This document shows positions 62,889-63,655 of a stretch of 64,000 nt of DNA, in pieces. A program made the position numbers and the translations under genes. Below the pieces are notes generated by a model that was not told the origin of the DNA, did not search any database, and worked only from the letters and a program-made list of their open reading frames with translations. Position 1 is the stretch's first letter. Each line of letters opens with the position of its first letter. The stretch comes from a bacterium. GTDB lineage: Bacteria; Cyanobacteriota; Vampirovibrionia; Gastranaerophilales; Gastranaerophilaceae. The stretch lies in NCBI GenBank assembly GCA_017403285.1, contig JAFQOI010000047.1, positions 1 to 64,000 on the forward strand, read 5' to 3'.

Positions 62889-63206
62889 ATTTTTTATTTC
62901 CCCACAATATAGTGATATTACAATTCTAATATAAATTTGAACATTTGTATATACGTAGTTTATAGGATATAGAGGAAAATGAACTTTTAAAAATCCAATA
63001 TCGTTATATAAAACGAAGAACAAAATAAACACTCAATCAATACTTATTTATTTCATGACAGACTCTGGTAATTTATCTAATAAATTACCTTTTTCTTTTT
63101 TAATTTAGTGTTGTAATAAAATAAAAATTCAACATTTTTACTTTATTTAAAAAAACCTGTTGACTCTAAAAAATGTTCTTGGTATCTTAATAAAGAAATC
63201 AGACAA
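62889..63206. other. Gene-free gap before tRNA-Lys
   Basis: About 318 nt, very AT-rich. The only element I can support is the tRNA promoter at 63160-63188. The open frame on the minus strand up to 63032 is an upstream extension of the prepilin-like gene without its own start. Confidence 0.5.
63160..63188 (+). promoter_or_regulatory. Promoter of tRNA-Lys
   Basis: TTGACT (63160-63165), a 17-nt spacer and TATCTT (63183-63188). The start would be about 12 nt before the mature tRNA. Confidence 0.65.
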
Positions 63207-63282
63207 GCGTCTGTAGCTCAGCAGGTAGAGCACTCCCCTTTTAAGGGATAGGTCGCGCGTTCGAATCGCGCCAGACGCACCA
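63207..63282 (+). tRNA. trnK: tRNA-Lys (TTT)
   Basis: Acceptor GCGTCTG pairs with CAGACGC. The anticodon stem CTCCC/GGGAT closes CTTTTAA, with anticodon TTT. The T arm is GCGCG TTCGAAT CGCGC. CCA is encoded at 63280-63282, unlike the tRNA-Trp gene. A terminator follows at 63289. The last 19 bases plus four downstream are copied at 63462. Confidence 0.97.
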
Positions 63283-63286
63283 TTTT
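63264..63286 (+). repeat. tRNA-Lys 3' end, copy 1 of a 23-bp direct repeat
   Basis: From the T loop through the encoded CCA and four Ts. The identical 23 bases occur again 198 nt downstream (63462-63484). Similarity extends into the AGAGG that starts the following hairpin, with a small indel. Confidence 0.9.
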
Positions 63287-63288
63287 TT

Positions 63289-63314
63289 AAGAGGTTATCA
63301 AAACCTCTTTTTTT
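63289..63314 (+). terminator. Terminator after tRNA-Lys
   Basis: AAGAGGTT (63289-63296) pairs with AACCTCTT (63302-63309) around ATCAA, then a T-run to 63314. Confidence 0.88.
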
Positions 63315-63461
63315 ATGTCTAAATTTAAATTTTTTTTGCGCGATGAGAACGCAACAAGTTACAACCTTGTTTTTAAGTTCGAACGGAAGTGAGCAGAGGC
63401 TGAAGTAACGAAAATGATAAATTTTCGGCGCGAAACGCCGTTTATAGCGAACAACCAAGAA
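63315..63461. other. Hairpin-rich block between the two tRNA 3' ends
   Basis: No credible gene. This part of the 63283-63655 gap has four possible arms: TTGCG/CGCAA (63336-63354), AACAAG/CTTGTT (63353-63371), CGAAAAT/ATTTTCG (63409-63427) and CGGCG/CGCCG (63426-63440). The last two share two bases and cannot both form fully. It is less AT-rich than its surroundings. Confidence 0.5.
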
Positions 63462-63484
63462 AATCGCGCCAGACGCACCATTTT
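63462..63484 (+). repeat. tRNA-Lys 3' end, copy 2 of a 23-bp direct repeat
   Basis: A perfect copy of 63264-63286, but with no tRNA 5' part before it. Directly after it lies AGAGGAC/GTCTTCT (63485-63502, one G-T pair) and a T-rich stretch, a weaker terminator mirroring that of the true tRNA. The following 150 nt to pepT hold nothing clear. Confidence 0.9.
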
Positions 63485-63655
63485 AGAGGACTTAGGTCTT
63501 CTTTATTGTATTTTAAAAATACGCATAATTCAGAAAATCATTTCTCATTCAAAAGACAATCGAAATTTATAATAAAGAAATATTAACTATTATAAAATAT
63601 TCTAGCAAAATATAAATTAATCATATTTTGTAATAAAAGAGTGAAGGTATTTAAC

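Follow-up and report, generated by a model that had tools for sequence, protein, structure and literature searches.

An rtT-like, T-arm-split tail repeat behind a tRNA-Lys gene in Gastranaerophilales, probably a non-autonomous palindromic element

Introduction

The rtT repeats (RttR RNA, Rfam RF00391) have, to our knowledge, stood for decades as a peculiarity of the Escherichia coli tyrT operon, with no agreed function. In E. coli K-12 the units behind tyrV carry three perfect copies of the tRNA tail (AATCCTTCCCCCACCACCA, from tRNA position 58), together with a reverse complement of the T-arm that has a central GA (here termed the anti-T-arm; GAAGGAT-GA-GAAGCTTC, fitting at 14 of 15 positions) and a copy of the T-arm 5' half (AAGGTTCGA). 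The tyrT-tyrV spacer holds one such unit, with GAAGGGT-GA-GAACCTTC as its anti-T-arm. Three 181-bp units annotated as RtT are located behind a tRNA-Ser gene in E. coli 602354, and these possess a tail (AATCCCCCCCTCACCGCCA) and an anti-T-arm (GGGGGAT-GA-GAAGCCCC) fitted to the T-arm of tRNA-Ser; the flank of K-12 serT, employed as a negative control, contains neither a tail copy nor an anti-T-arm.

Other repeats are also relevant to a comparison. REP/RAYT systems combine short structured repeats with Y1 transposases, Rickettsia palindromic elements (RPE) are short palindromic modules found at scattered genomic sites, some of them inserted in frame in protein genes, and direct repeats of tRNA 3' ends are the classic marks of attachment (att) sites. 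We know of no RPE that copies the 3' end of a local tRNA or carries an anti-T-arm, nor of any rtT-type unit described previously in Gastranaerophilales. The literature covered on rtT and on tRNA-linked repeats in this order, in which older papers are thinly represented, holds no description of the anatomy reported below.

Results

The analysed stretch of DNA (the window, 64,000 nucleotides of a Gastranaerophilales genome) carries on its plus strand an intact tRNA-Lys(UUU) gene (63207-63282; ARAGORN and Rfam), the T-arm of which, GCGCG TTCGAAT CGCGC, occupies positions 63255-63271. As the initial annotation had reported, the last 19 bases of this tRNA (positions 58-76) plus TTTT recur perfectly, the two 23-nt copies (63264-63286 and 63462-63484) being 100% identical at a spacing of 198 nt; counted along tRNA-Lys, the repeat starts at A58 in the T-loop. 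A terminator-like hairpin follows each copy, namely AAGAGGTT...AACCTCTT with a T run (63289-63314) and AGAGGAC...GTCTTCT with a T-rich tail (63485-63508), and so the stem which had been described as copied is alike in kind only, since the two sequences differ. The 175 nt between the repeats, already noted to contain stems and no gene, proved to be a structured module, and the open reading frame list of the window offers no real gene within it. A 103-aa minus-strand frame (63147-63458), antisense to the tRNA, bears the 'GAIRTRDLSLKRG' peptide, well known as spurious, and is the familiar antisense-of-tRNA artefact. At gathering score, tRNA was the only Rfam family identified in the window region. 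A hammerhead-like reading of the motif 'GAUGAG...' was ruled out, as the conserved UGA and GAAA are missing.

The module is composed, in order, of an anti-T-arm (GCGCGAT-GA-GAACGC, 63338-63352), which reads as the tRNA-Lys T-arm in reverse complement, save that GA takes the place of the middle TC; a hairpin termed P2 (ACAAG...CTTGT, 63353-63376), present in both the minimum-energy and the centroid structures; a copy of the T-arm 5' half (GTTCGA, 63377-63382), which follows the same rule in other units; and a structured core, core B (63381-63461), comprising P3, tandem-GA internal loops and a P4 hairpin. This core was delineated by alignment, covariation and a covariance model (81 model positions, 82 bits, E 9.8e-18). 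The anti-T-arm fits its own T-arm at 13 of 15 positions, the highest value among all tRNA species, and provides the 5' strands of P1 and P2, P1 being closed by the T-stem strand of the second repeat copy. The minimum-energy fold of the window element corresponds to the predicted junction (GCGCGAU/AUCGCGC, GAAC/GUUC with its hairpin, and the core). Not every relative folds in this manner, and the minimum-energy structure at L111 is less clean than that of the window. The interval 63264-63508 comprises one unit and the start of a second.

In most units, upstream of the core lies the reverse complement of the unit's own tRNA T-arm with its central GA (GATGAGAAC), then a small hairpin and the T-arm 5' half (..TTCGA) abutting the core, and thereafter the T-arm 3' half. 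With these two halves on either side of it, the core interrupts a second T-arm at its loop, and pairing with the anti-T-arm can bring the halves together. The fit of the anti-T-arm averages 12.0 of 15 positions for the own T-arm versus 9.6 of 15 for the T-arms of other species, although these counts are not independent, as T-arms resemble one another and many elements are related by descent; tRNA-Lys loci without a unit score 6-9. A clear anti-T-arm was recognised in 62 elements; in 58 of these, and in 21 of 21 tRNA species, GA stands opposite G57-A58 in place of the TC of a perfect complement. A pattern that is independent of the core (GATGAGAAN{8,28}GGTTCGA) was strongly enriched over a reversed control in the family of the window genome, where most inspected loci have a tRNA gene nearby, while genomes sampled from the phylum's other classes had it at about the control level.

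The window element therefore displays the anatomy of an rtT-type unit, i.e. a tail copy plus a GA-centred anti-T-arm with a T-arm 5' half, and tandem units of approximately 180 bp are found in its relatives. Both systems form tandem units of about 160-200 bp, both contain a perfect copy of the last 19 nt of the tRNA from T-loop position 58/59 while leaving the tRNA intact, both possess an anti-T-arm with the same central GA (GATGAGAA in E. coli) and, ahead of the core, a T-arm 5' half, and both are predicted to close with the same P1 and P2. This bears out the rtT-like tRNA-end repeat that the initial annotation had favoured, as E. coli rtT has the same 58/59 junction, GA-centred anti-T-arm and split T-arm. 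The core, in contrast, is unrelated in sequence and structure: the RtT covariance model did not match the window region, even with hits up to E 10 admitted (E. coli control, 133-138 bits), and the core B model had no match in E. coli. Furthermore, the E. coli units have been seen behind tRNA-Tyr and tRNA-Ser, whereas those of Gastranaerophilales follow at least 22 tRNA species as well as tmRNA, and the tpr protein that is annotated in the K-12 rtT repeat has no counterpart gene in the window unit.

Core B (approximately 80 nt) is a dispersed repeat within the genus. Its structure was set by hand on an alignment of 46 copies, from which the covariance model was built; in this alignment 87% of pairs are standard, 15 of 22 pairs exhibit compensatory changes, and covariation is strong, with 115 double-change cells compared to 28.6 in shuffles, a signal abolished in a control in which the partner strand was slid. 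The model detected core B in 38 of 40 genomes of the genus, in 93 of 117 of the family and in 125 of 146 sampled Gastranaerophilales genomes representing several families, at 0 to 36 copies per genome. In a class-level sample all matches fell within the window's own family, with none in genomes of other orders, and a search of 84,980 species genomes with a core pattern returned 73 stretches, mostly titled Candidatus Gastranaerophilales and many from guts. The window genome holds two copies according to the model, one at the tRNA-Lys locus and one (G000:C102) behind a degenerate tRNA-Val(UAC) remnant, the latter followed by a copy of the 3' end of that tRNA.

Within the genus, most cores follow a tRNA gene of the same strand at a distance of some 60-150 nt, and the tRNAs concerned are of many species. 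Taking the first core behind a tRNA at all loci, 73 distinct elements were obtained, representing 22 tRNA species, while three tandem units lie behind the tmRNA gene in another genus (L268). Since many of the 73 elements share descent, the counts that follow overstate the number of independent events. A copy of the 3' end of the own tRNA was present at 80% identity or more in 58 elements and was perfect in 38; it starts at tRNA position 58/59 and keeps a near-fixed distance from the core end (2 nt in 45 of 58). In 52 of the 73 elements the tail copy is closer to its own tRNA than to that of any other species. That the same arrangement recurs in these tRNA-linked cores places the repeat in the window far beyond chance. 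Mismatches between tail and tRNA amount to 1-2.5% in the T-loop and T-stem, 4.8% in the acceptor strand, 14% at positions 73-76 and 18-32% in the duplicated trailer. This profile indicates that the duplication takes in the trailer and terminator and that the strand closing the junction is the best preserved, the difference between T-stem half and trailer being as a constraint on P1 predicts.

The initial annotation had proposed a comparison of the locus among relatives, in which a block conserved in all would support an RNA. At the tRNA-Lys locus of 30 genus members, in many of which a purA neighbourhood was found, the unit was present in six (the window, L012, L021, L024, L025 and L029), decayed in G014 and absent elsewhere; the outcome is mixed, the block being patchy, like a mobile element, while its structure is conserved where it is present. 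The tail copy tracks the local variant of the acceptor stem, being AGACGC in some members and AAGCGC in others. In L030, an otherwise empty tRNA-Lys site retains the first bases of the unit (GCTCGATGAGAA), which we read as the remnant of a lost unit. No clean pair of empty and filled sites displaying the moment of insertion was found, L030, L346 and L351 each keeping remnants. In the decayed case (L085, G014:C6), approximately 1.4 kb separates tRNA-Lys from a decayed core and tail and encompasses two small helix-turn-helix-type genes and an unassigned 268-aa open reading frame; this stretch is possibly cargo acquired by the unit.

The window has a single unit and the beginning of the next. In relatives, two or three tandem units were observed at tRNA-Gly (162-bp period), tRNA-Leu and tmRNA (L098, L099, L107 and L268), the last units being cut short at varying points. 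The cores themselves are exchangeable: at tRNA-Ser(CGA), the flanking parts are the same in G010 but enclose a different core, and in G035 core B comes first, with that other core after it. Several modules begin with AGCG and end with CAAGACA or a near form.

In other genera, many cores have no tRNA link and reside inside other palindromic repeats or genes. The occurrence of core B in unrelated palindromes and in frame within protein genes suggests a mobile palindromic module. At L221, L224, L281, L217 and L130, core B forms an in-frame part of protein genes, either internal or C-terminal ('ADCEQR...DPFNASNQE'), which recalls the Rickettsia palindromic elements, and at L253-L258 (G158) it is nested in a longer structured repeat ('GCGGATTTTGTGTAGG...CAAAATCCAAGACA') with near-identical copies, several of them at contig ends. 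The likeness to RPE consists of dispersed short palindromic modules and in-frame insertions in protein genes. With REP/RAYT the shared features are short structured repeats and the presence of Y1 transposases in some genus genomes. RAYT-like Y1 transposases were identified in 11 of 40 genus genomes, none of them adjoining a core, and the window genome has none; thus, unlike REP/RAYT, the repeats do not flank a Y1 transposase gene, and the correlation with copy number is weak, core counts being somewhat higher in genomes with such a transposase (one-sided Mann-Whitney p = 0.056). A mobilising enzyme for the unit was not found.

Discussion

We consider that 63264-63508 is an rtT-like, T-arm-split tail repeat, and that it is probably a non-autonomous, locally duplicating palindromic element which leaves the tRNA intact. 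Such a unit begins with the tRNA tail, taken from T-loop position 58, and continues with the terminator, the anti-T-arm, the small hairpin, the T-arm 5' half and an exchangeable core, after which tail and terminator come again, and we infer that it spreads as palindromic DNA with a breakpoint in the T-loop. The element would arrive or duplicate at the T-loop of a tRNA, its insertion would restore the tRNA 3' end with the displaced second tail remaining, and recombination between the direct repeats could then expand or contract the number of units. As RNA or as single-stranded DNA the unit is predicted to fold to a junction, the anti-T-arm pairing with both parts of the split T-arm copy and closing them around the core. 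Transcription may reach the unit by read-through from the tRNA promoter, in which case an rtT-like RNA would be released.

The fit to the local tRNA could be maintained for RNA function rather than mobility, which would count against a DNA element. The unit would then be a selected rtT-type small RNA, released from the tRNA transcript, which would depend on its tail copy and anti-T-arm to fold, to be processed or to act on the tRNA. Strong covariation of the core speaks for this, as do the P1 strand, which is the best-preserved part of the copied tail, the conservation in two phyla of GA opposite G57-A58 and the annotation of the E. coli counterpart as RttR RNA. However, the unit is patchy at orthologous tRNAs (six of 30 tRNA-Lys loci), its cores are interchangeable, copies of the core reside in protein genes and unrelated palindromes, and the window genome has only two of them. 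We give an RNA of this type clearly less than an even chance.

The repeated tRNA 3' end, with the tRNA left intact, is also what is seen at integrase att sites, and the initial annotation had entertained the scar of a tRNA-integrated element, here considered as a tyrosine-integrase element stripped of its genes. An integrase-bearing element does use the same tRNA-Lys in G002 (L126, G002:C5:13000-18000): it spans about 3 kb and encodes a 340-aa tyrosine integrase (PF00589, E 3e-35), a resolvase-domain protein and a Gp49-like (DUF891) protein, and the 1.4 kb of genes between tRNA and core in G014 might be taken in the same sense. The direct repeat of the G002 element (approximately 48 nt), however, starts in the anticodon loop, in contrast to the junction at T-loop position 58 that is common to all tRNA species; moreover, the same small core with matched tails is found behind 22 tRNA species, the mini-elements are without an integrase and the anti-T-arm would be left unexplained. 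An att scar is therefore unlikely, and was rejected on the boundary of the repeat and the 22-species distribution. Decay of a duplicated tRNA-Lys gene would agree with the repetition of the tRNA 3' end only, but no 5' part of a second tRNA was found at any unit-bearing tRNA-Lys locus, the junction lies at 58/59 across species and the sequence upstream of it is core rather than tRNA. A second full tRNA-Lys copy, which the initial annotation had named as a sign of gene decay, was detected in none of the 30 loci; a tRNA pseudogene was rejected on the lack of 5' parts, and we regard such an origin as extremely improbable.

Setting the preferred reading, that of a T-arm-split mobile repeat, beside its E. 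coli counterpart, what was supposed to be an oddity of one species looks like a broad class of element. A more far-reaching and decidedly tentative proposal, which we consider rather doubtful in its full form, would place rtT and the window element together in a single widespread class that targets the tRNA T-loop, in which the T-arm complement would act as a re-programmable guide (as RNA or single-stranded DNA), such that exchangeable cores settle behind many tRNAs and tmRNA and the tRNA 3' end is regenerated. Units of the same anatomy, central GA and T-loop junction included, occur in a distant phylum, where they follow more than 20 tRNA species as well as tmRNA and contain exchangeable cores; this would make rtT a general class with a testable rule. 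The T-arm-split anatomy explains why it is precisely the last 19 nt of the cognate tRNA that each repeat contains, and E. coli rtT offers an easy experimental model for the class.

Among viral contigs, the core B pattern and the Ser-type anti-T-arm each had 0 matches, and a looser anatomy pattern had five, two of which look like chance. In one IMG/VR contig (L383), a tRNA-Ala(GGC) is followed by a T-arm-split unit with a variant of core B and a copy of the tail of that tRNA. A second viral contig (L386) carries E. coli-type rtT itself, and a third (L387) resembles the E. coli tRNA-Ser array.
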